Positions 8,528-58,040 of a stretch of 64,000 nucleotides of DNA are shown piece after piece; positions within the stretch are counted from its first letter, which is position 1; the number at the start of each line of letters is the position of its first letter. Source of the stretch: Planctomycetes bacterium syqfu. Its GTDB lineage: Bacteria > Planctomycetota > Phycisphaerae > Phycisphaerales > Phycisphaeraceae. The stretch lies in contig CP087563.1 of NCBI GenBank assembly GCA_020974905.1, positions 2,108,001-2,172,000 of the forward strand, in the 5' to 3' direction. The notes under the pieces are model-generated. The model ran no database searches, had not been told where the DNA came from, and worked only from the letters and a program-made list of their open reading frames with translations. Made by a program: the position numbers and the translations under genes.

Positions 8528-8567
8528 GTGAACTCCAAATTGCTTTATGGGCAAATCAAAAAATGCA

Positions 8568-15707: not shown

Positions 15708-15831
15708 TCTCATTTTCCTTTAAACAATGAGTTGGATGTAGACAGACGTACCGACAGTTCATCCATTTGTCAGGATGCAGCCTTGTCAATTTGATCCGTT
15801 TAAATAATCAAACGACATGTGTCTTTGATCT

Positions 15832-17850: not shown

Positions 17851-17922
17851 AGATATTCCTGATGGTATGAAGCTTGAAAAGAAAGGTAAATAGCAAACCG
17901 ACAAGGACGATGAAATGGTCAA

Positions 17923-29780: not shown

Positions 29781-30527
29781 TTACCACCATTCACGTGCCA
29801 GGAATTTCACGCGTTCGGAACTGGCCATGCTCTGCCAATTCTCCATGGAGAGCTGACCGCCATGACCATCGCCGTACAGGAAGCTGTTGTTATGCGTCGG
29901 GTGCCCCGGGGTATCAGGCAGTTCGGTGTGCGGCCAAGCCCATGGCCATGTCCCTGAGGGTGTGGTGCTGTTGTTGATTTGCAGAATCGGGTGATAGTTC
30001 CAGGTCGCAGTACCACTGTGATAGTACGCACGCGCTCCGCCATAGAGATAGCCTTTGGAATCGACAATTTCCATACGAGGTAACGGAGCACGTCGAGCAC
30101 CATACTTCTCCAATCCGCCCATGTACTGATTGATGCCGTAGGTGATGCCACGTGAAGGATTGGCCAACGGCGTGATGTGGAATGATGCTTCGGGACACTT
30201 AAACGGCGTGCTCTCAGTGTCTGACTTGTCATACAAACCGTAGCCGATGAGCTTCTCAAACCAATCATTGGAACTGGCGTCCTGCCAGGTGTCCGACCAC
30301 CCTGAGTCATTATGGGTCGGCAAGATGCCCTTACTGTCCGCTGCATAGGTCATGGCCCACGTCCCTAACTGACGAATATTCGACAGACAGGCAACGCTCC
30401 GCGATGTCTTACGAGCGGCCCCCAACGCAGGCAGCAAAATCGAGATCAAAATCGAAATGATCGAAATCACCACCAACAATTCGATGAGGGTGAAAGCCGA
30501 ATTGGTGTTGCGTTTTGGCGTGGACAT
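29781..30527 (-). CDS. Prepilin-like protein, module partner of the deacetylase
   Basis: A 248-aa protein from ATG 30527 ([20 protein letters not shown]) with TTGGAG upstream; the TTG at 30539 is rejected because it overlaps that SD. Prepilin signal and helix ending [12 protein letters not shown], then [19 protein letters not shown] as in the classical H-x9-DG family. The C-terminal region reads [18 protein letters not shown], a shortened H-x-DG motif. It is co-transcribed with the deacetylase. The operator at 30621-30640 lies inside its promoter. Confidence 0.85.
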
Positions 30528-30589
30528 TTGAATCTCCAATCGTACCCCCCGGCATGAAGTTTACAATTCACAATTTCCGCGTGACGGTG

Positions 30590-37371: not shown

Positions 37372-39555
37372 TCACTGGGGACGTTGTGCAGGTTCAGGGA
37401 ATGCTGGCCAAAGCTCGGGTTTGCTGCTTAAGCAATGCGTCTCCACCGCCCCCATGTCTGGTGCTTTGCCCTGGAAATCATCATTGAAATTCGCGATCCG
37501 TTGTCCTGCGTCATAGCCCGGTGTTCCAGGGACCAGCCAGAGACGACCATCCGGTGATCGCTCGTAAATCGGCATCGCAGCGATGCCATTTTGCTGAGCA
37601 TCTTCGCGCACCATCAAGCGACCGGTGTAGAGATCAAAGTCATAATCATTGGTCAATGACAAGGGGAAATCGCGAATCGCCCAATCCTTATCCCGTCTCA
37701 TCTGCAGAATGTTATTGCGACTGGTGATATTAAACGCGGTCTTGTTCTTGGCAGTAAAGATAATACCCGACTGAGCTCCACTGGAAGCAAACGCCTTGGT
37801 CTGAGGGAACGGTGCAGGCTGCAAGGCGGTGTTGTGGAAAAGATACATCTTGCCAGCCGTCCAAAGCGTGTTGGGATTGCCCAGTTTAAACAGGTAATGC
37901 CCCGTCAGATCATTGTTTTTCGTTCCTTCATGCTTTCGTGATTGTGCATAAACATTGCGGAAAAAGTAAATGGGGCCAAGTGACGGCGATGCTGCACCAA
38001 TAGCACCATAGGTCATGTCGATATAGTTATCCCAGACACGAACATTCATGTTCGCACCTTCGATCTCCAGGCCGTCATCCCAGCAATGTGAGACATAGTT
38101 GCCATAGATGTCACTGTCTCGATTGGGGAATCCGCCAAAGCTGAAGTTGAGCACCTCACCCATGGCATCATTGAACATATGATGCAGGTCCGAGTGAATG
38201 CGGTTGTAACGAATGACATAACGCCCCTGCCCATATCGGAAGGTAATGCCCTGGGGACCTGCCGGGTGTTTGCTGCTGCCAACACGTTTTTGATTCCAAC
38301 TATTGGAGTCACTTTGCGGGTGATGCAGATTGCAGTTCTGAATCACGACATGCTCGAGCTTCCGGTACTTGGAGTAGATCGCAGAATTCAAGTCCGAACC
38401 GTAACCGTCGGCCTTGCGTGTGCGCCCCCAACCACTGATATCACAATCATCAATCACGATGTGATGCACATCGCGAAGCTCAATGCCATGAGTGATGGCG
38501 TTTTTGAGTGTAAACCCCTTGATGATGACATAAGGTGCATTGACTTGTATGTTGACTTCATGTTTGCGTTGAGCATCATGTAAACCGGTTTGCCCCAGGG
38601 CAGGTTCGTAGAGAACGTAACCGGTCTGTGCACTTCCTCCTTCGTTGATGACCAACGTCTCATTGCTGTCTTTGACTGTGATACGTTTGGCAATGAGGAA
38701 ATTTTCATCCCATGTGGTTGCGGTGAAGTTCTGCGTGTGCCCAGTTGCTGGTACTGTCAATTGGATATCGTACGTGGTCGCTGGCTTGAGATAGACCAGG
38801 CTGCCACGGTACTCACCGCTGTGCTTTTTGGCAGGTTCGGGATGGTCATTGGTATCAAACCAGAGATCAAGACCGTCTTGCCAATCACTTGATCCCTGGG
38901 CTTTGAATTTAACTTGACAGACCCGATCCGCAGCAGCGTCTTTGGGTTTCCAATATAGCCCCATACTATGAAATGTCGGGACAGCACGGGGTTGGCCAGT
39001 GATTTGCGTTTGAGGCGCAGGTCCAACCTCGTTCATGGAGATATTGGCAAAACTGGCTGTGTGTCCCAGATGTCTCTGGCTTTGATCCCACCGCAGCATC
39101 ACCATGATGTGGTCACTGTCGCCACTGGAAAAGGTTTCCTGTACTTGTTTCCATTGCGGGCCATCACTGTAACCGATGTTAAAACGCTGGATCTCTTTTT
39201 CGTCTTTGTAATGTTTGATCTGAATGAATGCCGTTTCAGGGACATCACTTTTAAGCCATGATTTGACGCAATACAACGTGTAAGGTTTCACTACAACGGT
39301 TTGTGTTATCTCACCAAAGAGTCTGAGTTCCTGATCGCCAACTGCAACGTTCACGTACTGCATTACATGATCCGTGGCATCTTGATCGGTGATATGCCAG
39401 ATTGTTTTCTCATCAATCTGCCACTTCTGCCTGAACGCTGACTCGTCAGTCAACGAGCCTGCCTGCAGCATCTCCATGGCCATCAAGGATGGGTTGATGA
39501 GATGACTTAAAACTGAAAAACAAAGTATCGCGAGTAAAAAATTGCGTTTGCGCAA
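37372..39555 (-). CDS. Secreted right-handed beta-helix protein, probable polysaccharide lyase-like
   Basis: A 727-aa protein, apparently starting at TTG 39555 (MRKRNFLLAILCF) with AGGAG 7-8 bases upstream. Signal peptide ends near residue 26 (SLMAME). Residues ~30-175 are CBM-like (VVVKPYTLYCVKSWLKSD, ASFANISMNEVG). Residues ~195-280 are FnIII-like (YWKPKDAAADRVCQVKFKAQ, LKPATTYDIQLTVPATG). The rest is parallel beta-helix: APYVIIKGFTLKNA, HHIVIDDCDISGWG, HVVIQNCNLHHP, DSDIYGNYVSHCWDDGLEIE and MNVRVWDNYIDMTYGA. The short stem CWDDGLEIEG recurs as CPDDGIEMD in the 55605 protein. Beta-helix lyases act on uronic acid polymers, but no catalytic residue can be assigned. It is the last gene of a LacI-prepilin-enzyme operon. 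Confidence 0.72.
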   Translation of the reverse strand: MRKRNFLLAILCFSVLSHLINPSLMAMEMLQAGSLTDESAFRQKWQIDEKTIWHITDQDATDHVMQYVNVAVGDQELRLFGEITQTVVVKPYTLYCVKSWLKSDVPETAFIQIKHYKDEKEIQRFNIGYSDGPQWKQVQETFSSGDSDHIMVMLRWDQSQRHLGHTASFANISMNEVGPAPQTQITGQPRAVPTFHSMGLYWKPKDAAADRVCQVKFKAQGSSDWQDGLDLWFDTNDHPEPAKKHSGEYRGSLVYLKPATTYDIQLTVPATGHTQNFTATTWDENFLIAKRITVKDSNETLVINEGGSAQTGYVLYEPALGQTGLHDAQRKHEVNIQVNAPYVIIKGFTLKNAITHGIELRDVHHIVIDDCDISGWGRTRKADGYGSDLNSAIYSKYRKLEHVVIQNCNLHHPQSDSNSWNQKRVGSSKHPAGPQGITFRYGQGRYVIRYNRIHSDLHHMFNDAMGEVLNFSFGGFPNRDSDIYGNYVSHCWDDGLEIEGANMNVRVWDNYIDMTYGAIGAASPSLGPIYFFRNVYAQSRKHEGTKNNDLTGHYLFKLGNPNTLWTAGKMYLFHNTALQPAPFPQTKAFASSGAQSGIIFTAKNKTAFNITSRNNILQMRRDKDWAIRDFPLSLTNDYDFDLYTGRLMVREDAQQNGIAAMPIYERSPDGRLWLVPGTPGYDAGQRIANFNDDFQGKAPDMGAVETHCLSSKPELWPAFPEPAQRPQ

Positions 39556-39645: not shown

Positions 39646-40371
39646 TTACTCCTGTGGTAATACCCACATCAGCTTGCTGGGATCAACAGGCACAATCGAC
39701 CAATCCACATTTTCACGTGGTTCTCGCGAAACATGTCCATCGTAATAGGTGACATTCGTTGCCCCGTCATGTCGATAGGAGATGACTTGATTGCCACCAT
39801 TGGTCATTGTTTCATGCGTAAACATGTCCGATTTATTGCGTGCCAACCGGTCATGCAAACCGTCTGCAAACATCATCTTCTTGCCGGGTTTAATGATTCT
39901 GGAAGTCGGGATGCCCGTATTTTGAAGTTTGGAACTCAAACCAGAAAGGTTGTAACCATAGCTGTCTGGCATGGAGCCTTCCTTGTTGCTTGTGAAATAG
40001 GCTTCCTGTTGAGCGCGACTGCTTGGGCACAGAAAGATACGGTTCCAATCCCACTTACCTGCAGCAGATCGCTTGGGTCTGCCAAAGTTATCTCTGAAAG
40101 CGTCATTGGCATACCAATTCTTTCTGCCGGTATCCGTTCGCACCGGCAAGTAACGTCCCTTGTTGATCGACGTATAGACTTCGTTAGAAATACCATACTG
40201 CTTTAACAGTGACATGCACTTGGCTGCATGAGCGGCTTGCCTGGCTTTACCCAGAGCCGGCAGGAGTATGGATATCAACAATGAAATGATGGAGATCACC
40301 ACCAGCAATTCGATCAACGTAAATCCACGACTTTGTGAAAAGGACTTTTTTTTGTCATGTGCAAAATTCAT
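39646..40371 (-). CDS. Prepilin-like protein, module partner of the 37372 beta-helix protein
   Basis: A 241-aa protein from ATG 40371 (MNFAHDKKKSFSQSRGF) with TTGGAG upstream. Its leader before the FTLIELLVV signal is longer than in its relatives (about 17 residues). Helix ending LLPALGKARQAA, then AAKCMSLLKQYGISNEVYTS. The C-terminus has RHDGATNVTYYDGHVSRE, an exact H-x9-DG motif. It starts 28 bp after the LacI stop and ends 90 bp before the enzyme start, matching the order at 4664-10413. Confidence 0.85.
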   Translation of the reverse strand: MNFAHDKKKSFSQSRGFTLIELLVVISIISLLISILLPALGKARQAAHAAKCMSLLKQYGISNEVYTSINKGRYLPVRTDTGRKNWYANDAFRDNFGRPKRSAAGKWDWNRIFLCPSSRAQQEAYFTSNKEGSMPDSYGYNLSGLSSKLQNTGIPTSRIIKPGKKMMFADGLHDRLARNKSDMFTHETMTNGGNQVISYRHDGATNVTYYDGHVSREPRENVDWSIVPVDPSKLMWVLPQE

Positions 40372-40399
40372 AACGACTCCAATCGGAAATGAAGCACTC

Positions 40400-41422
40400 T
40401 CAACCTGCCGAAGCACGCAAGAGAAATGCCATGTGAACGGTCTGTGTTCGTGATTTGATGTCTGTTTCAGCCAGACGACTGTTAAGCATCTGCATCACCA
40501 CATCTGATACTTCGTGGCGTTTACGGTCACCACTGGCCAAAGCCGGTTGCCAGATACGCCCCGCTTCGATGTCATTGAATCCGACGATAGCAACCTGGTC
40601 AGGAACCTTCACCCCACGCTGCTGTAATTCGCGCATGATGTATAACGCACCAATATCATTGAATGTGAAAATCGCATCGACGCCATGCAAATCATCCGGA
40701 TAAGCTTTGTTGAACGCAGCAAGATGCTGAGTGCCCATCTGCTCAGGGTCCGTCACTTTGCCATGATCCAAAAGCATGTTTTCATGCGTCATGCCGTGCC
40801 GCTGACATTCTTCAATGAAGACCTGGCATTTATGCGGGTTGTATTTCTTGTCCACGTCAATGACGAAGATCGGTTTGCGACGTCCCTTTTGCGCCCAGTA
40901 CTTCATGACCTGCCGGATGGCATCAAGGCGATCAAGCACCACCAGGTCACCGGGGAAATCCTGTAGGGGAACCGGGCTGATGGCCACCACCACCGGCATG
41001 GACTTTAACCGCTGAGCCACCTCCGGATGCTCAAGCTGGTCGGCAATCCCACTGATCACCAGGGCATCCACCCGACGTGCCTTCATCTCGTCAATCTGCT
41101 TGCACAACGATTGGATATCCGATGGTAACTGACTCTGATAAACCTGATAGCCCTTGTCCTGCACCGCTTTGAGGATGGACAAAGCGATTGCCGTATCTCC
41201 CGACCAGATGTCAGCAAAATGCCAGATCATGCCAATGGAATTGGTCTTGGCCCCCCGCAGCCCCGCCGCCAGTCGATTGGGTTGATACCCCATCTCTCTA
41301 GCCGTCTGAAGCACTTTCCGGCGCATTTCATCGCTTATTCGTCCTGATGAACCAAATGCAACGGATATCGTCCGTTGATTGACACCAAGTGCTTTTGCAA
41401 TATGTTCTTGCGTAACGGTCAC
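40400..41422 (-). CDS. LacI-family repressor, first gene of the 37372-41422 operon
   Basis: A 340-aa protein, start GTG 41422 (MTVTQEHIAKALGVNQRTIS). The HTH at 3-24 is followed by VAFGSSGRISDEMRRKVLQTA and the hinge GYQPNRLAAGLRGAKTNSIGMI. Effector domain: MKARRVDALVISGIAD, MPVVVAISPVP, GVDAIFTFNDIGALYIMRELQQRG, VAIVGFNDIEAGRIWQPAL. The recognition helix (NQRTISVAF) departs from the usual T-VSR form seen in the other three LacI proteins here, in line with its different operator. A perfect 18-bp palindrome lies just behind its promoter. Confidence 0.9.
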   Translation of the reverse strand: MTVTQEHIAKALGVNQRTISVAFGSSGRISDEMRRKVLQTAREMGYQPNRLAAGLRGAKTNSIGMIWHFADIWSGDTAIALSILKAVQDKGYQVYQSQLPSDIQSLCKQIDEMKARRVDALVISGIADQLEHPEVAQRLKSMPVVVAISPVPLQDFPGDLVVLDRLDAIRQVMKYWAQKGRRKPIFVIDVDKKYNPHKCQVFIEECQRHGMTHENMLLDHGKVTDPEQMGTQHLAAFNKAYPDDLHGVDAIFTFNDIGALYIMRELQQRGVKVPDQVAIVGFNDIEAGRIWQPALASGDRKRHEVSDVVMQMLNSRLAETDIKSRTQTVHMAFLLRASAG

Positions 41423-41761: not shown

Positions 41762-44700
41762 TTACCGGGCAGCTTCCAACTCGTAGCGGTTCCAGAGGTC
41801 GGGATTGACGTAGTTGTTGAATGTGCCATGCACAGCCATCGCAGACTTGCGCAGCCACTTGGGATTGGTGTCGTCGGTGTCATCGACCAGGAAGTCCATC
41901 ATGAATTGACTGCTAGGCAGGAGTTTGAAATCAAGCCATGGCTTGGGGATCAGCTTGCCTTCGATGACATAACCGTCGGCTGTCTTGCGACTGACCGTCT
42001 GCAAGTCCGCGGAGACCTGTTCTTTGTCCTTGCGTGCAAACCAGAACTTGCATGGCTTGGCTTGCTCGGTGTCGTTGGGCGTGATGACAGCCTGGTCTGC
42101 GCCGACACTGATGGTCGTGCCGCGTTCACCAAACTTGCGCCCGTCAAAGAACAACTCAAGACAGTCATAGCGGAATGCGTGAGCACCTTCAGGCGCGGGG
42201 ATGACTTTATCGTCCGTGACTTTAAGCAGGAAATACAAACCATCTTCACGCCAGGCAAGTTTGAGATCCAGAGACAAATCTTCCTTGCTCATCCATTGGG
42301 GCAACCAGACTTCCGCGAAGTTGGGCTTGCCATGCACGACACTGTCGACATCATCACACACCACGCCCTTGATGTCCGACCATTCGTCATCGTTGCCATC
42401 CAGCGTGATCGATGTTGTTGCTTCGGGAATCACCTGGATGACGCCGTTGGACTTGAAGATCGACTGTGCTGCAGCGATGACCTTGCCTTGTTCGTTCTGT
42501 AAATCCACGCTCAAAAGGTACGGACGACGCTTGAGGAAATCAGCTTTGAGTGTGACATCCAACACCTCGGTGGCACCGGGAGCCAGCGAGACCGTTGACT
42601 GGGACAAGCTGATATCCGTGCCACGAATCGGCTTGGCAACGAGCATACCTTTTAATGGTTTATCAAACGGATTCGTGACGGTGACTTTACCCGCAAGAAT
42701 ACGATTCTCCGGCAACACCTCAGGAGCCTGCACCAACAGCGGCACGACTTCCTTCATCTCCGATGGGACATCGAAAATGTACACCGGCTTTAACCCAATC
42801 GGCAACGTGATCAGGCCTGTATGGTTGGCGGTGATCTGGCTGAAATTGCCCAACATATCCATGGTCTTGTAAGTCTTGTTCGGCTGAACCTGAAAATTAA
42901 CCGTGCTTTCATTGAGACTGAAAAGTGCTGCAGTCGTCTTGTTATCCGTGTCCTTGACCATGATGCACATATTCTGGGCAATCGACATCGGCAGACGCGT
43001 GATTTGCTTTTGCTTGTTGAGAACCTGTCCTGCCAACGCAGTGATCGCAAGCCCTTTGTAACTTGGCTGCCCTTCATTGTTGGGCGTCGTGTGAATGGTG
43101 TAAAGCTTGTAGCCCTGGAGCAAATCCATGAGTATGCCATGACATTGCAAGGCAGCGCCTTCGTCTTCCGGGTAACGCGGGACAAAGAACGGGAAGAACT
43201 GCAAGCCATAGGACTCGGAGGATTTGAATCGGGCAGCAAAGCCATCGCTGCGCGTCATAGGCCGACCGTTAATGCGAGGCAGTTGGCCCACGGTGCATTC
43301 GGTATTCCACATGACCAGATTCTTATCAGGATATTGCTCGATCACCTTCTTGAGTCGGGCCGTGTTGCTCTCCCAGAGATACGCCCCAATCGGATTGGCC
43401 GTGTAGGGATGATAGGAAACACCATCGACATAATTAATCCCGCCTTTCTTGAGAATGTCCGCAATCATCGGGATTGAAGGCGGTGCAGCACCCGGGGGAA
43501 CAATGAGTAATTCAGGCTTCTCACGCTCGACAGCTTTGTAGACTTCCATGAGCATGGCCACATACCCCTTGATGTCCTTGGCATGCGGCTCACTGGTGAC
43601 TTCAAGACCAAAGATATTCAGTGACTTGAAAAGCTTGATCGCTTCGGAGAAAAGTTTCTCGTTGTGTTGGCGTGTTTTCTCAGAGTTGTCATGCTTGCAG
43701 TAAAACCAGACAAACGCACGAAAATTGGGGACGCGATTGGCATAGGTGTTGTATTTCTCCATGAACTTATCCATGGCCGCAGTATCCGATTCACCGGGTT
43801 CAACATCCCGCGATGGCACGTAATTCATACGTCGCGTCGGGACATCAAAGTAAAACCGATCTTCCCAATCCGCCCAGAATGCAAGGGGATTATGCTCGGT
43901 GAGTTCCTGGGGTGCAGGTGAAACAATGCCGATGCCCTGCTTGCTTGAAAGACGCTTGAGAACTTCACCATCCGTGTTACGAATGATCACATCCAGATAA
44001 TAAAGACCACATTGGTCCAAGGTGAAAGTCTGCTGAACCTGTTTACCAGCAGCCAATGTTTGCTTGATGGATTGCAGGGGTTTTCCTTCCAGCGTTTCCA
44101 ATGCAAACTCGGCGATGAGGTCACCGGTGATGGTTGACGTTTGAGGCATGTGGATCGTGGTGGTGAATGGCGTGTTGACGCGGAAGTAACCATCGGTTTT
44201 GTTGGGCAAGTCAATGACGATGGCATCCAGTGTCTGCTGACGCTGCTTCTGCTGGTGATACAACGCAAGCTGCTGCGATGTTGTCATCTCCGGTTTACCG
44301 GCCTGGTACTGCTTGACGATCGTTTGCGATTCCAGAGCCTGGTTAAAAACCGCGAACTCGCCGATGTCATAGCGGGCGATGGTTGCGCCATCGCTCTTGG
44401 CTGGGTTGTGAGCAAGCATCAAAAACTCACCGAAACGCGAAGGTGAATTGGCTTCGTAAAACGGTCCGATCATCGGCATGTTTTCATATGTCGTCGGGAT
44501 GACCGGGCCGGTGGATGGCTTTTCTTCAACCATCTTCCCATCGAGATACAGACGAACCATCTTGTCATCAAAGGTGACCGCGAAGTGATGCCAAACACCA
44601 GCAATGCAGGGCTTGGCGGTCAGTTGAACGCGCGAAACACCTTCGGGCGCTGCGAGTCTGAATTCCAGTCGGCCATCGGGGTTCCATTTGGCCTTGGCAT

Positions 44701-45244
44701 ACTCCAACGTCAAGCCCGTGCTATATCCGTTACCCATTCGAATGAGATTGCAGGATGCATCCTGATCATCGACTTCATGAATGCGGAACCAGCCTGATAG
44801 CGAACCGCCTTTGGCAAACTCCACACCGGTGATGCCGCTGCGGTAAATCTTGGACGCCTGCCAGGGAAGCGTGGAGGTCTCAGCACCACTGAACACCGCC
44901 GACTTCCAGGGCCAGCGACCATGCGACCATGTCGGGGGTGGCCCGAATTTCGGATCAAGACTCAGCGCGTGACCTGATCCCTTGGTGCGTTGAATCGTCA
45001 GTGAACCAAGCGGTCCACCGGTGACCGCACGCTGTGATCGGTCGATATCCACATGGTTGGTGATTTCGTCGCCCGAACCTTTTTCAAAGGTATAGAACCG
45101 AATCAGAGCGGGTTCATCGAGCATCATCTGCTTGTACTGTTCATAGGCTGCCTGCTGTTTAGCGACATCTGCCAAAGCAGGCGATGTGAGGAGTAGAAAC
45201 AGCGTGCAGAGTTTGAAGAATGACGGTGTGATGGTCTGTTGCAT
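41762..45244 (-). CDS. Secreted modular protein: LamG-like domain, GH39-like barrel, C-terminal CBM9-like domain
   Basis: A 1160-aa protein. Signal peptide ends near residue 26 (SPALADVA). Residues ~45-320 are a LamG/concanavalin-like domain: LIRFYTFEKGSGDEI, GGSLSGWFRIHEV, CIAGVWHHFAVTFDDKMVRLYLDGK, IGEFAVFNQAL. A beta linker follows to ~440. The barrel has FRAFVWFYCKH, FGLEVTSEPHAKD (E552, possible acid/base), VDGVSYHPYTANP and NLVMWNTECTVGQ (E649, likely nucleophile). The C-terminal ~985-1150 resembles CBM9: LDGNDDEWSDIKG, LKLAWREDGLYFLLKVTDD, FRYDCLELFFDG. It is likely exported and acts on polysaccharide. It is 33 bp behind the related 45278 gene in one operon, and unlike that protein keeps its catalytic Glu residues. 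Confidence 0.75.
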   Translation of the reverse strand: MQQTITPSFFKLCTLFLLLTSPALADVAKQQAAYEQYKQMMLDEPALIRFYTFEKGSGDEITNHVDIDRSQRAVTGGPLGSLTIQRTKGSGHALSLDPKFGPPPTWSHGRWPWKSAVFSGAETSTLPWQASKIYRSGITGVEFAKGGSLSGWFRIHEVDDQDASCNLIRMGNGYSTGLTLEYAKAKWNPDGRLEFRLAAPEGVSRVQLTAKPCIAGVWHHFAVTFDDKMVRLYLDGKMVEEKPSTGPVIPTTYENMPMIGPFYEANSPSRFGEFLMLAHNPAKSDGATIARYDIGEFAVFNQALESQTIVKQYQAGKPEMTTSQQLALYHQQKQRQQTLDAIVIDLPNKTDGYFRVNTPFTTTIHMPQTSTITGDLIAEFALETLEGKPLQSIKQTLAAGKQVQQTFTLDQCGLYYLDVIIRNTDGEVLKRLSSKQGIGIVSPAPQELTEHNPLAFWADWEDRFYFDVPTRRMNYVPSRDVEPGESDTAAMDKFMEKYNTYANRVPNFRAFVWFYCKHDNSEKTRQHNEKLFSEAIKLFKSLNIFGLEVTSEPHAKDIKGYVAMLMEVYKAVEREKPELLIVPPGAAPPSIPMIADILKKGGINYVDGVSYHPYTANPIGAYLWESNTARLKKVIEQYPDKNLVMWNTECTVGQLPRINGRPMTRSDGFAARFKSSESYGLQFFPFFVPRYPEDEGAALQCHGILMDLLQGYKLYTIHTTPNNEGQPSYKGLAITALAGQVLNKQKQITRLPMSIAQNMCIMVKDTDNKTTAALFSLNESTVNFQVQPNKTYKTMDMLGNFSQITANHTGLITLPIGLKPVYIFDVPSEMKEVVPLLVQAPEVLPENRILAGKVTVTNPFDKPLKGMLVAKPIRGTDISLSQSTVSLAPGATEVLDVTLKADFLKRRPYLLSVDLQNEQGKVIAAAQSIFKSNGVIQVIPEATTSITLDGNDDEWSDIKGVVCDDVDSVVHGKPNFAEVWLPQWMSKEDLSLDLKLAWREDGLYFLLKVTDDKVIPAPEGAHAFRYDCLELFFDGRKFGERGTTISVGADQAVITPNDTEQAKPCKFWFARKDKEQVSADLQTVSRKTADGYVIEGKLIPKPWLDFKLLPSSQFMMDFLVDDTDDTNPKWLRKSAMAVHGTFNNYVNPDLWNRYELEAAR

Positions 45245-45277: not shown

Positions 45278-47698
45278 TTACTTGTATGTCGCGTTGTAGA
45301 GATAAATGGGTTGTGCTCCGACTTGGATCGTTTGGCCTTGATCCAAAGTGAGAAGTCGGCCGAACATGTCGCGAGCCATGATGGGCTGATCATCATCAAT
45401 GGCAATAACAGGCAACGTGACTGGTTTGTCTTTGGCAAAGGCGATTAAGCCAGCTTGTTCGTTGTCAGTTGTAAATGCATAGAGATGAAATCCCGCAGGA
45501 GTTGATTCGATTGGCGTCAGTTGGGGCTCGTTGCGCAGTGTCTGCGTGAGCATGGATAAAGCCAAACCTTTGAGACCGGGTAAGCCATCCACGGCATTTT
45601 CCATGGGGTAAAACGCAGCAGGAGACGGATTGAGAATCACGCGTTGCACGCCGGATGCCAATTGCATGATCACGCTTTGAATCATCCATGTCGCAGCATC
45701 ATGTTCATTGGCTAGCGGGGTCGGCCAGGCAGTTTCGGTAATGCGTTGCGATGCGTCGGGGAAGATGGAAGAGCGATTGGCCTGCTGCAAGCCTAGGCCG
45801 GTGTTCCAAATGGGCAGGTTGGGATAGCCCATTTTCTTGCAGACCGTCTGAACGGATTGGAGTTGATCGAGCAACTTGCCCTGCGTTATCGGGTGTGCGA
45901 TGTGGGACTGAACGCAAAGGATGTCGATCAGGTCACCGCCCTTGTCTTGCAAAAGCGTTTGCGTCCAATGGGCGGAGAGTTGCCAGACACCGCCACTGAC
46001 GATTTGCTTCTCACCTTTGGACGCGCGGATTGCTCCGGACGCAGCAGTGAGTAATTGGCGGTATTGGCTAATCGTCAGTTGGCCTGAGGGGATCCATTGC
46101 GATGCGTCCCATATTTCCCAGTATTTGATGTGACGGTAACGTGCCAGCATCTTGCGGATGAACTGTTGGTAGTGTGCCAGCGTTTTATCATCAATGGTGG
46201 TCTTGGGTTTGACGTTGGCCCATCGTGGAAAACCGGTCACGCAGACGATGGTTTGAATCGGCGATGCTTTTAAAGGCAATAAACTCTGATCCGATGTACT
46301 CCAGTCATACTCACCGCTGACCGGCTCAATGTCTCGCCAATCACAAACCACGCGCGTTAAGCCCACATTTAATGCTGCAGCCTCGGGACGATGAGAGAGA
46401 TTCTGCGCCCCCAGCCATGGCAATAAGTCACTGCGTTGCGTTGAGGTATTGATCACCGACGTCGCTGCCAACGGGTATTGTTTTGCATTCAGTCGCTCGC
46501 CCTTTTCATCGAGCATTGCCATCGTCAGTAGATACAAACCAGGTGTCGGGAGTGTGATCTGCGCCTGCAGTGACTGGGTTTTCTGCGCTGCAAAGGTCAT
46601 GCGTGTGTCATAGATCACATTGCCTTGTGCATCGGTGAGTGTGTAGGAAGCCTGCGTGGGCTGGAGGTCACTGTCTAGAGTCGAGAAGGTCAAGTCAATG
46701 GGTTGTTCAACGGGAAAATAGCCAAAGCTCTTGGGATCAATGTGCAATTGCAGCGAGGCCAGATTTTCACGTCGCTTGTTTTCAGCCTCGAGTCGGAGCA
46801 AGCGTTGTGTTTTATTTTCCTCTCCGATTTCATGAGGTTGACCTGCTTTGTATATGGATTGGACCTGTTGTGCGTTGATGGGCGTATGCAGTGCTGCCAA
46901 CTCATCGATGCGGAAATCCAGCAGGTTTGCTTTGCTGTACCACTTGCTGAAAATTCGCAAGCCGCGCTCGGGTTTGGTTTGGCAGAACCATTGATCCGGG
47001 GCGTCGGGCTTGGGCATGTTGAGTGCTTGGTTGGATTGATCAGCCAATTGCCCGTTGACGTAGAGATGCATTTTGCCATTCGCTGCAACGATAGTGACAT
47101 GATGCCAACGCTCGGGGAGAAAGGGTTTGCATTCGAGGGTGGTGGTGTTCTTGCCGTTCCCGCAGGCCAAAGCGAGTCTGCCCTGCTTAGCCCATTTGGC
47201 TTTGACGAATTCCATCCGCCAACCGATTTTGTAGCCGGTGTTCAGATGCATGATTGTGCCGTTGAAAGATTCTGCGACATCACGCACGCGCATCCAGAAA
47301 CTGATGGTGTAGCCCGCATCGAAATCGGGCAGCCAACCGGTGGGACCTAATTCATGGTCAGTGGTCCCGGTCTGCAAAGCAGTGAGAAAACCGTCGCGCC
47401 CCAGGGTCATGTGTGGCATGATGCGGTGATCGCTGGCCTGAACCGCTGCACCACGCCAAGGACCATAAGGCGACTGACTGACATACGTCAGATCACCACG
47501 ACCGGGACTTGCGAGATTGGTAATCAAACCGGGTTGCGCCAAGTCGAACTGGTAGTACAAATCCAGTTCTCTCGACTTGGCAAAAGGCGCGTAACAGTCC
47601 GGCAATCTGCCAGGCGTTCCCGCCCATGTTGTGCCCACAGCCATCCCACCAAACAACGCCACACTCAGAAGTGTCATCATCCAGACCCGATACTTCAT
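45278..47698 (-). CDS. Secreted LamG plus GH39-like barrel protein that lacks both catalytic glutamates (candidate pseudoenzyme)
   Basis: An 806-aa protein. Signal peptide ends near residue 26 (GTTWAG). LamG-like domain ~40-290: LDLYYQFDLAQPGLITNL, GYTISFWMRVRDV, FLPERWHHVTIVAANGKMHL, LDFRIDELAAL. The barrel reads VGLTRVVCDWRDIEPVSGEYDW, IQTIVCVTGFPRWA and HIKYWEIWDASQWIP. In GH39 and related enzymes the last strand normally reads YWEIWNEP; here the acid/base Glu is Ala (A532). The nucleophile strand LPIWNTGLGLQQ has Gly (G634) where the neighbouring 41762 protein has Glu (MWNTECTVGQ). The fold looks intact, so binding rather than hydrolysis is likely. It has no C-terminal CBM9-like domain. 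It is the first gene of the pair and is divergent from a GntR-type regulator. Confidence 0.72.
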   Translation of the reverse strand: MKYRVWMMTLLSVALFGGMAVGTTWAGTPGRLPDCYAPFAKSRELDLYYQFDLAQPGLITNLASPGRGDLTYVSQSPYGPWRGAAVQASDHRIMPHMTLGRDGFLTALQTGTTDHELGPTGWLPDFDAGYTISFWMRVRDVAESFNGTIMHLNTGYKIGWRMEFVKAKWAKQGRLALACGNGKNTTTLECKPFLPERWHHVTIVAANGKMHLYVNGQLADQSNQALNMPKPDAPDQWFCQTKPERGLRIFSKWYSKANLLDFRIDELAALHTPINAQQVQSIYKAGQPHEIGEENKTQRLLRLEAENKRRENLASLQLHIDPKSFGYFPVEQPIDLTFSTLDSDLQPTQASYTLTDAQGNVIYDTRMTFAAQKTQSLQAQITLPTPGLYLLTMAMLDEKGERLNAKQYPLAATSVINTSTQRSDLLPWLGAQNLSHRPEAAALNVGLTRVVCDWRDIEPVSGEYDWSTSDQSLLPLKASPIQTIVCVTGFPRWANVKPKTTIDDKTLAHYQQFIRKMLARYRHIKYWEIWDASQWIPSGQLTISQYRQLLTAASGAIRASKGEKQIVSGGVWQLSAHWTQTLLQDKGGDLIDILCVQSHIAHPITQGKLLDQLQSVQTVCKKMGYPNLPIWNTGLGLQQANRSSIFPDASQRITETAWPTPLANEHDAATWMIQSVIMQLASGVQRVILNPSPAAFYPMENAVDGLPGLKGLALSMLTQTLRNEPQLTPIESTPAGFHLYAFTTDNEQAGLIAFAKDKPVTLPVIAIDDDQPIMARDMFGRLLTLDQGQTIQVGAQPIYLYNATYK

Positions 47699-47957: not shown

Positions 47958-49073
47958 ATGCCGCTAACGACTGATACCACTGGTCAACGCATGCGCCCCA
48001 ATCGGGTGCTCGATCATTTGCGTGGTGTTTTAGCCAGCGGTCACTATGCACCGGGGGCCAAATTCTATTCCAACAACACCTTGGCAAAACGGTTTGGGAT
48101 CAGTCCGCCGACTGCGGGGAAGGTGCTCGACTCGCTGTGTTCTGACGGGTTGGTTGAGCGTGTCAAAGGCAGTGGCACGTATGTCACCGAGCATGCAATG
48201 AATCACCGCATTGAGCAATATGCCATGGTCTCATGGATGGAAATTGGACATCCGGCATTGCGTGGTTCGGAGCGTTACCAACTGCTCATCAGCTTTGAAG
48301 AAGTCTGCAATCAGGACGGCTGTAATGCCCAGGTGATCAACGTGGATGACCCGGAATTTGAGCCGCGATTCCAATCACTCATCGAGAAGGGATTGGACGG
48401 GATTCTGTTCCTGCCTCCGTTTGATCATCCCAGTGTTGCGCAGATCATCGAGCAGACCCGCGCGATGGACATCCCGGTGATTTACTGGTCAGATGGTGAG
48501 GTCCTGCCAGAACTGGATCATGCCTATCGCACACGGTTTGACAGTTCACAGTGTGGCAGGATTGCGACCGAACATTTACTTTCCATGGGACATAAGCATA
48601 TTGCTGCCATCCGTCGCAGCAGCTTTGGTCAGTGGAGCCTTGAGCGTATCGATGGCTATCACCAGGCAATGGCTGAAGCACGCATCCCCAAGAGTCAGCG
48701 TCAGGTGGTGCATATCCCTGACGACTGTCTGAGCCCATCTCAGTTAACCGAACTGCTACGACAAATTAAAAACGACGGCTGCACAGCCATTGTCGCAAGT
48801 AATGATGCCCTGGCTTACGAATTGATTCTGGCAGGTCGCGCGATCGGTTTACAGTTCCCCAAAGACCTCTCCATCATCGGCGTGGACAACCGGGGGCCTG
48901 CCATTCTCCTGGGACTGACAACCATCGAGTTGCCCGCGATGGATATGGCGGGCGCGATCACCAGAATCTTCCAGAATCACGAGCAATACGATCAACAAAC
49001 ACCTGTCACCGTGGGCTGTCGATTAATCTCACGTAACACCGTCGGACCGCCAGCCAATGTCAACGTGTCTTGA
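47958..49073 (+). CDS. GntR-type winged helix fused to LacI-like sugar-binding domain
   Basis: A 371-aa protein. The N-terminal GntR winged helix spans ~15-80: VLDHLRGVLASGHYAPGAKF, NNTLAKRFGISPPTAGKVL, CSDGLVERVKGSGTYV. The C-terminal ~270 residues are a periplasmic-binding-protein-like effector domain of LacI type: IEKGLDGILFLPPFDHPSV, MDIPVIYWSD, CGRIATEHLLSMGHKHIAAI, CTAIVASNDALAYELILAGRAIG, SIIGVDNRGPAILLGLTTIE. The combination matches the AraR-like architecture, which responds to sugars. It is divergent from the two LamG-GH39-like genes, its likely targets. The prepilin gene at 49175 lies 101 bp downstream and may be co-transcribed. Confidence 0.88.
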   Translation: MPLTTDTTGQRMRPNRVLDHLRGVLASGHYAPGAKFYSNNTLAKRFGISPPTAGKVLDSLCSDGLVERVKGSGTYVTEHAMNHRIEQYAMVSWMEIGHPALRGSERYQLLISFEEVCNQDGCNAQVINVDDPEFEPRFQSLIEKGLDGILFLPPFDHPSVAQIIEQTRAMDIPVIYWSDGEVLPELDHAYRTRFDSSQCGRIATEHLLSMGHKHIAAIRRSSFGQWSLERIDGYHQAMAEARIPKSQRQVVHIPDDCLSPSQLTELLRQIKNDGCTAIVASNDALAYELILAGRAIGLQFPKDLSIIGVDNRGPAILLGLTTIELPAMDMAGAITRIFQNHEQYDQQTPVTVGCRLISRNTVGPPANVNVS

Positions 49074-49174: not shown

Positions 49175-49873
49175 ATGACTTGCCCCACCCAATCGCGTAC
49201 GTCAACCGGATTCACGTTAATCGAACTGCTGGTTGTGATCTCAATCATCAGCCTGTTGATCTCGATCCTATTACCAGCGTTGGGTAGCGCACGCGCTTCT
49301 GCACGCAGTATCCAATGTGCTGCCAATATCCGAAGTATCGGCACGGCATGCGGTATCTACAGCAATGACTGGCAAGACTGGCTGCCTGGACCATCACATG
49401 AAGATCCGGCCACCAATACATGGTGGCGCTGGCCGGCTTTGCTTTCCTCATACCTGTCGATCAAATCCAATGTGACATCCGATCCCAATTTGGCTAAACG
49501 CACCGTCTACACCTGCCCGTCGGATGACGTGCTGACGTATCCTGCTTCAACCCAATTCTGGGCACCGACGAGTTATGGCTGCAATCGTGCCAACTTCCAG
49601 GATGCGACCATTGATGGCCCGGTGTATCGCAATTCAGATCTCAAACAACCATCCAAGTACTGCTATTTTGCTGACATGAAATCCATCTGGTTCCAAGGCG
49701 GCACCACCACCAATTATCTGGCGAACACCGGCTACTGGGAAACCACCTCATGGGAACCCCGCCACAAAGGTCCGGCATTTAACATGCTCTTCACCGATTT
49801 CCATGTCGCTACCGTGAGTTTCGACAACCTGCCGGAGAGCTCGGTAGCACAGTTGTGGCGTTGGAAGCCTTGA
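49175..49873 (+). CDS. Prepilin-like protein, paired with the GntR-hybrid regulator
   Basis: A 232-aa protein from ATG 49175 with AAAGGAAC upstream. Prepilin signal [20 protein letters not shown], helix ending [12 protein letters not shown], then [18 protein letters not shown]. It differs from the other six in lying on the plus strand, in following a regulator rather than preceding an enzyme, and in having [19 protein letters not shown], where the DG of the H-x9-DG motif is DF. It could serve the divergent LamG-GH39-like pair. Confidence 0.85.
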
Positions 49874-49948: not shown

Positions 49949-51982
49949 TCAAACCGATTGCTTGACCCATCCTGTTTGACCAATCGCCCACGCATCTTCG
50001 CATCGCGGATTAGATAGATCATCCCAAAGTAAACCCGGTGATGCGATAAAACCATCACCCGCAAGATAGGGCAACGTCTCAGCCTTGATATCCGAACACT
50101 GCCAGGTCGGCGACGATGCATAACGACCGTTAACTGTGCGAATCGAAACGCCATCAAACGGTGTTGCGTACGCCAGTGTCATCACCAATACCTCGCGATC
50201 CGTTAACGCCTGTCGGTGATAACGCATGCGACGCGTCAAGCCATAGAACTGATCTTCAATAACGGTCGCTTCGTGCAATGCATGCAGGTAGGAACCGATA
50301 TCCAGCTGCCAATCCGATGCATCCGCCAACTCAATGGCCATGCCGTTGTTGAGCATGGCAAGTTGCTTGTCGGTGATTGATGAAGCTTGCTGTTCAAGAT
50401 TAACCACTTCCAGATAGTGATATTGTTCATTGAATTTAAGCCTGGCATGACAGGGTGAATCCGGCATACCATTCATAGCCAAGGGATATAGACCGACAAA
50501 CGCATCACCCAACTTCGCACCAAACCATTGCCCAACCGGGTAAGGCTGGTCGGGGTTCATGGGGTGACCCTGCTGGTCAACAAAGCCATCAAACTGTCCG
50601 ACTGCGTTGGGGGCGATGATGCCCATGCGCAGCAATGAAACAGCCATCTCAGACAAATGTCGATGCGGTACCATCCCCAGTAACGCAGTCTGTTGATGCT
50701 GCACCGTATGCACACTCGCACGGCTGGAGAGATTGGCTTCCCCATGTGTCAATTGGTGAAACGTGTTGTCTTCGGTCATGCCCGGGAAAGCATCATTGAC
50801 CAGATACCGTGTGTAGAGAACCGGGCTGATGTCTTTGTGATTGTTGCCAGTCACATAGAGATTGGCAGTCTGCTCACCGGTGAGAAATGAACTGGAAGCA
50901 GACCCCAGCGAGTAGGCCTGCTGCATGAAGGATTGGGTGTCGACGCGTTTGAGTGGTGAATGCGCAGTGGTCCCCTGTTCTGCAGAAGCGAGGACTTCGT
51001 ACGGATAGTCTTTGTGAATGAATCGCCTTGCGATGGCATCATCAAGTAACGCGTCATCCGTCGTTGCATACCATGCCATCCGCGCCGTGTGTTCCAAGGG
51101 ATCATTGCCATGCATGCACTGAAGTCCGGGGCGGGGCATGATCGCTTCGGTCGCAGTAATACCCGATACTTCCGGCCCAAACAGGAACCAGCAAAGACAA
51201 TTCAATGGTGAGATGTAATTATTAAAATCATCCAGATACGCTCGGCTGAATGGTCCTGCTGGACACTTGGCAACCGGATGCCAATGCGATGCAAGGTCTG
51301 CCCACAAACGCTTGACGATCTTACCCGCGTGTTCGCGAACCTGCTCATGACGCGTGTGCGTGTAAAGCGTCATCAGATGATGAATCGTGTCCGGCATGTA
51401 ATTGGGACTGTTGTACTCACTGATCAAACCACATCGCGATAACATCTCTGCCAACCGCTGCAGCTTCCAAAGGCCCATTTGAATCCAGGCATCTTCACCA
51501 AACCGCTCACCTGCCAGGATCAACGTATTGACTGCCATAGCAGGCATATTGTCGTTATACCCGTGAAACTGATAGTCCGTCGCCTGCATCCCAGCCTTGT
51601 GCTGACACCCTTGGCAGACCATCTCTTCACATCGCGCCTTGGCCTGATCGGTCATCAAATGTTCGAACTTCACCAGGTGATGCATCATGATGCTGGTGTT
51701 GAAAATCCCAAAGCGAATACCAGCAACCTCGGGCATTGGCGCTCGACACACCAATTGATTAGCCGTATGTCGCTCGGCTTCATTACCAAGATAAAACGCG
51801 GTTGCAATCTGTAAATCCAGTCGCCCAAACTCCTGCGTCAACGGGATCAACCAATTGGCATCCGCATCAAGGATGGGTTTGAACAGGTCTCGGGCAATAT
51901 GCATGTACTGATCACATCGCTGCTGACGTCCTGCTCGGAGTTGCTGGATGCGTTGAAGGTTTTGTTCGGCGGTGTCGTGCAT
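49949..51982 (-). CDS. Protein of unknown function, probably an all-alpha toroid with a C-terminal beta domain
   Basis: About 677 aa from ATG 51982 (MHDTAEQNLQRIQQL); a TTG two codons upstream is also possible. No signal peptide. The first ~400 residues are helical: TQEFGRLDLQIATAFYL, YNDNMPAMAVNTLILAGERF, CGLISEYNSPNYMPDTIHHL, HAGKIVKRLWADLASHWHP. The EYNSPNY segment and repeated helices suggest an (alpha/alpha)6 barrel, as in several lyases and unsaturated-sugar hydrolases. The second part is beta-rich (FVGLYPLAMNG, YLEVVNLEQQASS, SIRTVNGRYASS). I cannot place it in a family. It is the last gene of the minus-strand run after a GntR-hybrid regulator and would act in the cytoplasm. Confidence 0.6.
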   Translation of the reverse strand: MHDTAEQNLQRIQQLRAGRQQRCDQYMHIARDLFKPILDADANWLIPLTQEFGRLDLQIATAFYLGNEAERHTANQLVCRAPMPEVAGIRFGIFNTSIMMHHLVKFEHLMTDQAKARCEEMVCQGCQHKAGMQATDYQFHGYNDNMPAMAVNTLILAGERFGEDAWIQMGLWKLQRLAEMLSRCGLISEYNSPNYMPDTIHHLMTLYTHTRHEQVREHAGKIVKRLWADLASHWHPVAKCPAGPFSRAYLDDFNNYISPLNCLCWFLFGPEVSGITATEAIMPRPGLQCMHGNDPLEHTARMAWYATTDDALLDDAIARRFIHKDYPYEVLASAEQGTTAHSPLKRVDTQSFMQQAYSLGSASSSFLTGEQTANLYVTGNNHKDISPVLYTRYLVNDAFPGMTEDNTFHQLTHGEANLSSRASVHTVQHQQTALLGMVPHRHLSEMAVSLLRMGIIAPNAVGQFDGFVDQQGHPMNPDQPYPVGQWFGAKLGDAFVGLYPLAMNGMPDSPCHARLKFNEQYHYLEVVNLEQQASSITDKQLAMLNNGMAIELADASDWQLDIGSYLHALHEATVIEDQFYGLTRRMRYHRQALTDREVLVMTLAYATPFDGVSIRTVNGRYASSPTWQCSDIKAETLPYLAGDGFIASPGLLWDDLSNPRCEDAWAIGQTGWVKQSV

Positions 51983-52156
51983 GGTCAATCAATTCCAACA
52001 GTTAATCTGGATCAATAGCAACGTCTTGATAGGCAACCAAGACATCACCATTCAACAAGCCACAAACGCAAACGAATCGCGCTGAACGTGAATTACCACG
52101 CACTTGGCCAACAGGCTTGTTGGATCCTGTAAAAAACTTGAATACAAACAGCAAGG

Positions 52157-54907: not shown

Positions 54908-55612
54908 TCAGGGGTTTTTCACCACCAGGCTGTCTGGATCAACCTTGGGCAGGCTAGCAACATGACCATCAACAAATAGATCATTGATCGCTTGGTTGTG
55001 TCTTGTGGCTGCCAGGTCATCATCACCCGTCGCTGCCTGATACAGATCGTAATTGGGTGTCGTGTTGTAGGCGACAAACCGATAGCTATGCGCATCGACC
55101 ACCGCAGTCGTCGCAGAAGGTCGAATCAGGTTTGGCAAACTGTAACCACTCCCCGTCGTCGAGCTGGTGGTCGAACCGAGATACACGTGGTAAGCATAGG
55201 ACAGTTCGTTGTAATCACGTTTCATCGCGGGGATATTCCACCCCTTGATTTGTGTGACCGATTCGTCTTCCGGGCAAATCAACACACGATCCGCCGAAGC
55301 CTGCGCGTAACTGCTACGGTATTCAATCGCCAGATAGCCTTTAATCAATGACGGCCAAACTGTGGAGTAGGAACTGTTGTCCTGATAGAAATAGGCTGTC
55401 GCTGGCATGCGTTGCTTATGGTCATTGCTGTAAATCGAAAACGCCAAACCGATGTTATGCAGATTGCTTGAACACTGAACACGACGTGCAGCTTTGCGAG
55501 CCCCTGCCAATGCAGGCAGCAGGATGGAGATCAACAGTGAGACAATACTGATAACGACCAGCAACTCGATAAGTGTAAAGCCATGTGATTGTTGATAAGC
55601 AGGCTTATTCAT
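54908..55612 (-). CDS. Prepilin-like protein, overlapping the beta-helix gene
   Basis: A 234-aa protein from ATG 55612 ([20 protein letters not shown]) with GAGGAG upstream; the frame opens further upstream inside the beta-helix gene but without an SD. Helix ending [12 protein letters not shown], then [21 protein letters not shown]. The C-terminus has [18 protein letters not shown], an exact H-x9-DG motif. Its start codon lies within the last codons of the 55605-58040 gene (8-base overlap), so translation of the two is probably coupled. Here the prepilin follows the enzyme instead of preceding it. Confidence 0.85.
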
Positions 55613-58040
55613 GAAAAGTCTCCTCAAGCACGGGACCATACACCGGCAGATCAACGCCCTGCTCCATTGCGCCAAGGTCCGGCCCTTGACCGGTCACTTG
55701 ATCATTGATGTTGGGCAACACCATGCCACGATCCACACCGGGTGAATCATGAGCCAGCGTGAAATTCATGCCGGGTTGCTCAACCCAATGACGCGTGGTT
55801 GGGGTAGGAACATTGACGAGGGTGTTGATGGTCAGATTGCTGATGCCATGGGTTTCCATACCGGTTGCGTTCTGAAAGTCCGTAAAGGAATCAAAGACGA
55901 TTTGCCCGGATGCATGGTATGGTCGATCCATTGCGGGAATCACCCAGAACCATTTATTGCAGGCGGTCTGACTGTAGCCATTGTAATCCAGCTTGCTAAG
56001 CAGCGGCGTGGGATTGCCTGTCCACAAGGGACCGCTGGGCGTATAGGGACTGCCAAGAAACAGGTTGTTGACCATCAGCGTATTCGCCCAGCCGGTCTCC
56101 ATGCGCGCGGCATTGGCGACAGCAAACGTGTTGTGAAAAATGCGTAACCCTGATGGATTGCGGGCAATTTTCAGTGCGAAGATCCGCGTGTTGTACACCA
56201 CATTCCGAAGCACATATCCCGGACCACCAAAGACAGGCTGCATGCTGATCCCCATATGTGTATTGGTGATGTAGTTTCGGATCACGCGAATGTTGGCTAC
56301 GCCGTAATCCATCTCAATTCCATCATCGGGGCACTGATCAATGCGGTTGTTGTAAATGTCAATCGCCCCATTACACATGCTCGGATCGGAGGGCGGCATG
56401 ACGATCGGGTACACACTGATCCCATCCCAGAAACCACGAACGAGGTTATGTGCAATGTCATGTCCCTGCCCACCAAGCTGGATGCCAGTGTTTAATCGCA
56501 GGGGAAGATAGCCGTAAATATTCTTATCGACACTCCAACCGTTTTGCCACTGACCGTCAGGCCAATTGCCTATGAAAATGTTGTTGATGACCGTCCAACC
56601 GGTCATGCGGGCGGAACTGTCATCGGACTGTTTATTGAGATGATCATCGTCATGCGGCCCCGCGTTGATGCCATAACGCAGATCAACAAAGCGACAGTTG
56701 GCGATCTCGATCTGCTGGGCGTCATTGGCATAAATCGCGGTCTCCATGTTACGGAAGGTCAGATACGAGATGCGATGTGACACTGCGCCGGTGAGATCCA
56801 TCATGATCCCCACCGCCCCGCCATCGAGAATCGTCGAACCATCTGCAGCACCGGTGATAGTGATCGGCTCGGTGATACTTGCCTGTTTTTTGAGATGAAT
56901 CACGCGAAGATGTTGACGATTTTCCGCTGAAAAATCAGTGTAAAGTTGTGATGCCTGATCATCCAATGGCGGGTGGATGTATGCAATGCGATCATCACCA
57001 TAACGCTGCTGCCTTGCCTGGACATCACCAAATTGATGAACACCACTGTGAAGCAAAATGGTTTGGCCGGGCTCGACGGCGTCATAAGCTTGATTGATGG
57101 TGTCATAGCTTGGCGTGAGTCGAGCACCTTGATAGGACTGCGGGTAGACATGCAACACCGTCGCGTTGGTTGCCTTAGCTAACGGTTGTTTGGTCTGCGC
57201 TTCAATGATCTGTTGTTGATCACCACCATCCGAATCATGCAATGTCAGTCGAACTTGATAGGACGTTGCCGGATCGAGATTCAGCACACTGCCTGAGAAG
57301 CGATTGGGGCAGACCACATGCCAACCGATGCGACTGGTGCCCGCCCCATCAAACAAAGTCCGCAGCAGTGGCTGCGCTTCGAGCCACTGTGACTCACCGG
57401 TCTTGCGGTATGCCACGGTGACGGATGCATTGCGATTAAAGTCGCCCTTCATGTCCCACTGCAAGCCGATGGCATGCAACGTCGATTGCTGCACGCGTAG
57501 TTCACCTGCCTGAATCGGACTTGGGTTAGAGTCAAAAGCCTGAGTCTGCGGGATCGCAGTCAGCGTCGAGTCAACATCACAGGTTTTATGTGCCAGCCAT
57601 GTATCGAACATGGAAGGCAATGACTGTTCTTGCGTCGGCGTAACCGACACACTGCCCCAGTGTGCTTCACCTTGCCCACCGAAGACCATCAGCACAACCG
57701 AAATCCGCGAGTTGTCTTTTTCCTTTGCAAAGACCATTTGCTTACTCACTGGCAGAGAGCCGACACGAAACCGGGCAGATTGGGCGACCATCAAATCGTT
57801 TTCAAAAACCTCAACACGACCAATATGTAAGTCCGGGTGCGTCGCGGTGATCTGGCTGACATCCAGCGCCCACTTGCCAGCCGGCAGATTGGGCAAGACC
57901 ACTGTCTGCTGGGCAATGTCCCATTGATTGGCTTGGGCGATGACCTGCTGGATCACCGGTGTCTGTGCCTGTAACACCGTCAACGGCGAAAACAACATTG
58001 CCAATAAAACCAAACTCTGCCAACCGATTCGTATCATCAT
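55605..58040 (-). CDS. Secreted right-handed beta-helix protein, probable polysaccharide-active
   Basis: An 811-aa protein from ATG 58040 ([15 protein letters not shown]) with AAGGAG 7 bases upstream; the 58112 start is rejected. Signal peptide ends near residue 25 (LTVLQAQ). Residues ~30-170 are a beta-sandwich ([30 protein letters not shown]). Residues ~185-290 are FnIII-like ([34 protein letters not shown]). A beta-helix follows: [98 protein letters not shown]. Same plan as the 37372 protein. No catalytic residues can be assigned. It is the first gene of an operon divergent from the PocR-AraC regulator. Confidence 0.72.

Follow-up and report, generated by a model that had tools for sequence, protein, structure and literature searches.

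Gene organization of the locus

The window, a 64,000-nucleotide stretch of the genome of Planctomycetes bacterium syqfu, carries two adjacent minus-strand genes encoding related barrel proteins. The first, at 45278-47698 (-), encodes a protein of 806 amino acids (aa) that its open reading frame, a domain search and a model of its barrel identify as a pseudoenzyme with the fold of glycoside hydrolase family 39 (GH39). Its layout comprises an N-terminal hydrophobic segment, assigned as a signal peptide by eye, followed by a LamG domain, a beta-sandwich, a barrel without the catalytic glutamates and a C-terminal beta part; the protein is probably secreted. The only Pfam match above cut-off is the LamG (concanavalin-like) domain at residues 127-279 (46862-47320, minus strand), which matches Laminin_G_3 (PF13385) with E 2.9e-13 and 50.7 bits against a gathering cut-off of 27.6, so that the LamG domain named in a preliminary description of this DNA is real. 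PF01229 (Glyco_hydro_39) was absent from the Pfam matches of this protein up to E 1, which says little because two Glu-bearing relatives (L013 and L086) also lack it at E 0.1; no Pfam family matches the barrel, which is therefore linked to GH39 through its fold and through profile comparison. The motifs YWEIWDA (residues 526-532) and WNTG (631-634) stand as first described, ending in Ala532 (GCA, 46103-46105, minus strand) and Gly634 (GGC, 45797-45799, minus strand), respectively.

The second gene, at 41762-45244 (-), begins 33 nt downstream and encodes a sister protein of 1160 aa comprising LamG, sandwich, GH39-like barrel and CBM9 regions, with LamG and CBM9 as its Pfam matches above cut-off. 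It carries both glutamates where the preliminary description had placed them: the motif SEPHA, from residue 551, contains the acid/base candidate Glu552 (43589-43591, minus strand), preceded by Ser551 and not by Asn, and the motif WNTEC, from residue 646, contains the nucleophile candidate Glu649 (43298-43300, minus strand).

A divergent gene for a GntR/LacI-type regulator (47958-49073, plus strand) lies upstream of the pair, followed by one for a prepilin-like protein (49175-49873, plus strand). On the other side are genes for a LacI-type regulator (40400-41422, minus strand) and a right-handed beta-helix-like protein (37372-39555, minus strand), the latter with a Pfam match just under cut-off. 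The window encodes four prepilin-like ORFs in all (29781-30539, 39646-40416, 49175-49873 and 54908-55675); the Pfam domain N_methyl was found in the one checked, that at 39646, and the others were assigned by similarity. Heparinase II/III-like, polysaccharide-deacetylase-like and GH42-like proteins are also encoded in the window, and from these predicted neighbours a polysaccharide-degrading role for the locus is likely. Between 41000 and 50000 no Rfam family reached its gathering score, and the promoter and terminator scans gave no excess over shuffled sequence (2 versus 2.0 and 1 versus 2.9, respectively).

Elsewhere in the window, an ORF at 59084-64000 (-) that runs past the window end combines DUF4011, AAA_11/AAA_12 helicase parts, an MTES_1575 restriction-endonuclease-like domain and a sub-cut-off DUF3320, and presumably resembles a helicase-nuclease of the defence-system kind. 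Four further minus-strand ORFs had no Pfam match at E 0.01: 4664-8554 (1296 aa), 14151-15713 (520 aa), 15949-17922 (657 aa) and 49949-51988 (679 aa).

Fold of the barrel and position of the lost glutamates

The barrel occupies residues about 426-690 (45629-46423, minus strand). A model of residues 416-806 built on a 16-row alignment reached pLDDT 76.7 and pTM 0.82; a full-length prediction on a 5-row alignment (pLDDT 40.6, pTM 0.32) was set aside for reading the fold. By our assignment the barrel model contains eight strands alternating with helices, in order, and the barrel is thus as intact as had been proposed. It lies closest to solved GH39 structures, in keeping with the family likeness first suggested: in VIA-align comparisons BcGH39 (5jvk) ranked first (Z 30.3, 3.2 A, 345 aa) and PslG of Pseudomonas aeruginosa (5bx9) second (Z 29.6, 2.9 A, 338 aa), followed by a GH30 structure at Z 22.7, and the top four Foldseek rows were PslG (three) and 5jvk. 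At 14-16% identity, BcGH39 and PslG share this fold with the window protein and keep both catalytic glutamates, whereas the window protein has neither.

In a profile of the 16-row barrel alignment, two conserved Glu columns align with the WNEP and STE motifs of PslG, whose glutamates are chain residues 139 and 250 by hand count and, with a single offset of 26, correspond to Glu165 and Glu276. In the part of the PslG literature drawn on here, these residues are given as the acid-base and the nucleophile, respectively (PMC11912335). Since the profile columns fall on them, Ala532 and Gly634 occupy the catalytic positions. Two orthologues, one in the metagenome-assembled genome (MAG) NAT22 (locus L012, Phycisphaeraceae) and one in G622, a genome from another class of the same phylum, lack the same residues: the acid/base Glu expected where strand 4 ends is Ala in all three proteins, and the nucleophile Glu expected where strand 7 ends is Gly in the window and NAT22 and Ala in G622. 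The tyrosine of the canonical strand-6 H-P-Y supports the nucleophile; in the window protein this triplet of the canonical profile is replaced by Q597-S598-H599 (45902-45910, minus strand), and in G622 by R-K-F. With the Glu pair lost, the 806-aa protein is predicted to lack hydrolytic activity.

Conservation of the pseudoenzyme and its sister

The NAT22 orthologue is 83.5% identical to the window protein, with the same motifs and the same gene order. Synteny extends over a prepilin gene, the GntR/LacI regulator (95% identical, at the same place), the pseudoenzyme, its partner, the LacI regulator, a second prepilin gene and the beta-helix gene. The G622 orthologue (785 aa, 27% identical) carries Ala at each of the two sites, in the motifs EVWNAD and VWNTAG. 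Alignment at positions 532 and 634 thus gives loss of both glutamates in three of three copies, the window included. The recurrence of the window's residues in a separate MAG and the Ala at both sites in G622 exclude a sequencing error. A LamG domain is present in all three pseudoenzyme copies.

Between the window and NAT22, the pseudoenzyme gave dN 0.084, dS 0.484 and dN/dS 0.17 by NG86 and dN 0.087, dS 0.389 and dN/dS 0.22 by YN00; the sister gave dN over dS of 0.039/0.549 (NG86) and 0.042/0.433 (YN00). The pseudoenzyme is under purifying selection, as judged from this one pair of close copies, and evolves about twice as fast as its sister (dN 0.087 versus 0.042, YN00).

In G622 the sister is 50% identical to that of the window and keeps both glutamates; CBM9 had no Pfam match in it. 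It lies 42 nt downstream of its pseudoenzyme, compared with 33 nt in the window and 33 nt in NAT22 (with the ATG start that we chose), always on the same strand and in the same order, so that a sister with both glutamates follows the pseudoenzyme in three of the three genomes found to carry a dead copy. In the G622 stretch read, the ORF directly upstream of the pair is a prepilin whose nearer relative, of the two window prepilins compared, is that at 49175 (39%, E 4e-24); the stretch is without the window's regulators and beta-helix gene. What is conserved is therefore the pair with a prepilin and not a large locus.

A 15-protein tree groups the dead copies from the window, NAT22 and G622 in a single clade (support 98/94), whose sister group is a clade of the three sisters and a homologue from G788, a genome of the same genus (97/97). 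These seven separate from eight other barrels at 100/99, several long branches being flagged among the eight. Read in the least costly way, the tree would imply that both glutamates were lost once, ahead of the divergence between the copies found in the two classes.

Of the cleft-top positions, which we chose ourselves, 25 of 72 are invariant among the three dead copies, compared with 48 of 203 elsewhere in the barrel (permutation p 0.046) and 16 of 63 at the barrel bottom. So small an excess at the cleft top speaks against a sugar site under strong conservation. LamG and barrel are conserved to a similar degree (61/246 and 73/275 invariant positions, respectively), and binding could therefore reside in LamG.

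The sister barrel and its relatives

The preliminary description had called the sister an intact relative. This holds for its two glutamates but not for the barrel around them, which matches a canonical-barrel profile over residues 557-652 only (38.0 bits; 42.0 and 40.8 bits for the other two sisters), nor for the residue before the acid/base Glu: Ser occupies this place in all three paired sisters (window, NAT22 and G622), and Asn does so in all 36 of the other loci (33 distinct) that have a related barrel. The same profile matches the pseudoenzyme over residues 440-688 with 113.9 bits, its NAT22 and G622 copies with 113.2 and 78.0 bits, and the unpaired G788 homologue, which also keeps Asn, with 133.5 bits. 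The profile was made from 12 barrels, namely L013 and 11 from viral contigs; the viral barrels were fetched with Glu-containing seeds and are for that reason uninformative on how often the first Glu is lost. Alignment A8 omits, by choice, further viral loci that carried insertions, were truncated or duplicated, showed no barrel by eye or yielded no ORF (L036-L038, L040-L044, L046-L049, L051, L052, L055-L058, L060-L062 and L065).

The placement of the sister's Glu552 depends on the alignment: it stands opposite Ala532 in A6 and opposite the G788 Glu in another alignment, was shifted in the MAFFT alignment A5, and fell behind a gap in one profile that placed the sister's Ser at column 532. Each of the two proteins thus seems to lack what its partner retains, as far as one unpaired relative and an alignment-dependent Glu552 can indicate.

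The first Glu is kept in all 36 of these other loci and the second in 33 of the 33 that could be aligned there (31 distinct). The 36 were drawn from the genome-search hits, leaving out the pair's own loci and repeats; three of them repeat others, hence the 33 distinct. Left out as spanning neither site were L005-L008, L076-L079, L081, L083, L084 and L089, and one row of the G788 search that had no locus also stands outside the count. The barrels of the window's own genome that aligned to position 532 keep Glu, the sister aside (its Glu552 lies behind a gap in that alignment), and the 36-locus count agrees for the own-genome loci in it.

Distribution of the pair

Full-length relatives were rare in the samples searched, which overlap; because the large genome searches scored no more than two candidates in each genome, they may have missed additional copies. 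In the class sample the pseudoenzyme query matched four of 397 genomes at E 1e-10, at full length in its own genome only, and the sister query matched one of 397 at E 1e-15, again its own. Pair alignments used as queries matched 12 of 392 genomes of the phylum sample at E 1e-15, with the pair visible in G000 and G622, and one of the 29 genomes of G622's class carries it. Three of 330 genomes in the order sample matched a pair alignment (the own genome, G773 and G788), and the pair was found in two; G773 and L012 have every sampled 20-mer in common across two pieces of 5.4 kb (271/271 and 274/274), and G773 was therefore counted as the same MAG as NAT22. In these samples the pair is confined to two separate lineages. 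Its members being scattered among genomes yet adjacent suggests that the pair may move as a unit by transfer.

Within the genus, the 78% complete G788 has one homologue of the enzyme clade, with KYWEILNEP and WNSES, which we read as split over two contigs (L086 on G788:C332 and L091 on G788:C291); it is unpaired, with both glutamates and a CBM9, and no pseudoenzyme match was found in this 78% complete genome. The contig with its N-terminal piece also encodes a 467-aa protein, a prepilin-like ORF and a LacI-type ORF. In G201 (same genus, 95% complete) neither gene of the pair was found and the beta-helix gene is present; the beta-helix protein had no match at E 1e-5 in G622 or G788. Plasmids gave no match to the sister at E 1e-5, and pattern-seeded scans of viral contigs with the pair alignment or with the pseudoenzyme gave no relative.

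Discussion

Homology to a glycoside-hydrolase fold, loss of the catalytic residues, conservation of that loss and purifying selection are found together in the 806-aa protein, and its status as a pseudoenzyme is well supported. Its retention beside a Glu-bearing sister in one close and one distant relative suggests that the two proteins may work as a pair. A partnership with the neighbour had been proposed in the preliminary description, and it receives indirect support from the adjacency of the two genes, which keep their strand and order in both classes.

We regard as probable that the protein is a secreted pseudoglycosidase that does not hydrolyse glycan but serves its sister as a glycan-binding or partner subunit. 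An ancestral enzyme with LamG, sandwich and GH39-like barrel would have duplicated; one duplicate would have lost both catalytic glutamates and the strand-6 His-x-Tyr while retaining barrel and LamG, and the other would have retained both glutamates and carried a CBM9-like C-terminal region. The pair would be co-transcribed, the sister active and the two functionally or physically coupled, with the dead copy capturing polysaccharide for the sister, presenting it to the sister, or binding the sister itself. Against this reading weigh the small excess of conservation at the cleft top, the faster evolution of the dead copy, the confinement of the pair to two lineages, and G788, where an enzyme-clade member stands without a pseudoenzyme match in a 78% complete genome.

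A stricter form of this partnership, which we think unlikely, is an obligate two-barrel complex that shares out one enzyme's work. The dead copy, with its canonical barrel, would then supply glycan binding or stabilisation, and the sister, with the Glu pair and degenerate elsewhere, would depend on its dead partner.

It is likewise improbable that the protein is a stand-alone secreted lectin whose dead barrel and LamG bind glycan independently of the sister, adjacency reflecting co-regulation in one polysaccharide locus. The LamG domain in all three copies would suit such a lectin, and glycan-binding pseudoglycosidases are known from the part of the literature drawn on here (PMC7828330), but the G622 stretch has the pair without the window's regulators and beta-helix gene. 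A regulatory role towards the sister, such as that of a decoy or inhibitor by analogy with what has been proposed for HPSE2 and HPSE1, appears quite doubtful: in HPSE2 the nucleophile position has also changed from Glu to Gly, and inhibition of HPSE1 by substrate competition or contact is described in the part of the source used here (PMC12406646), but why a bacterial degrader should produce an inhibitor beside its enzyme is not apparent to us. Very improbable is an enzyme that is still active with a relocated or different site, for instance at Asp453, an acid that closes predicted strand 2 and is shared by all three copies; both glutamates and the His-x-Tyr are gone and the nucleophile position varies between Gly and Ala. 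Asp531, adjoining Ala532, was rejected as a substitute acid, being Asn in G622. A decaying duplicate heading for loss, to which the faster evolution of the pseudoenzyme might point and against which the preliminary description had already argued, has a negligible probability, given a dN/dS of about 0.2, frames open in three copies from two classes, the Glu pair lost in all of them, and the deep orthologue in G622.

The heparanases HPSE1 and HPSE2 belong to family GH79 and, by analogy, are the closest precedent for the partnership that we favour. In the available part of the source, HPSE2 is described as a dead (beta/alpha)8-barrel relative of the active HPSE1 that has Gly381 in place of the nucleophile but retains the acid-base Glu, binds heparan sulfate with high affinity, is reported to inhibit HPSE1 and is better conserved than HPSE1 (PMC12406646). 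Like the window protein, HPSE2 combines a dead barrel with Gly for the nucleophile Glu and has been retained alongside a relative, in its case an active one; unlike it, HPSE2 is an animal protein, keeps its own acid-base Glu and is not part of an adjacent bacterial pair. The order of conservation is also reversed, the dead copy being here the faster-evolving one. BT3986 has a GH18-like fold. It is described, again from part of the sources, as a mannose-binding surface protein of the N-glycan locus of B. thetaiotaomicron (PMC7021837, PMC11180146), a non-enzymatic glycan holder that, like the putative binder proposed here, is encoded with an enzyme, in its case the endoglycosidase producing its ligand; it differs in belonging to a Sus-type surface system. 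PgaB of E. coli, which is said in the portion of PMC7828330 drawn on to set a carbohydrate-active domain beside a related inactive one that binds polysaccharide, is bacterial too, but is a tandem of CE4-type, esterase-type domains in one polypeptide, whereas here the fold is that of GH39 and the pair is encoded by separate genes. Chitinase-like lectins (YKL-39) and klothos are given in the same part of that source as pseudoglycosidases that bind ligands instead of cutting them; these are animal proteins related to GH18 and GH1.

In the literature searched, whose coverage left out most subscription journals, we found no paper on a GH39 pseudoenzyme and nothing on point for Planctomycetes pseudoenzymes or for glycoside hydrolase catalytic residues in Phycisphaer- taxa. 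The pseudoglycosidase precedents found, as far as the sources drawn on go, are mostly animal (HPSE2, klothos and chitinase-like lectins), with PgaB a bacterial case of esterase type. Annotation from the barrel fold alone would mislabel the pseudoenzyme as a hydrolase. The locus offers a compact bacterial case, with adjacent genes without and with the catalytic glutamates kept in two classes, and a same-genus genome in which just one of the two was found, and its two proteins allow a direct test of how a pseudoglycosidase affects its paralogue, be it by helping, targeting or restraining it.
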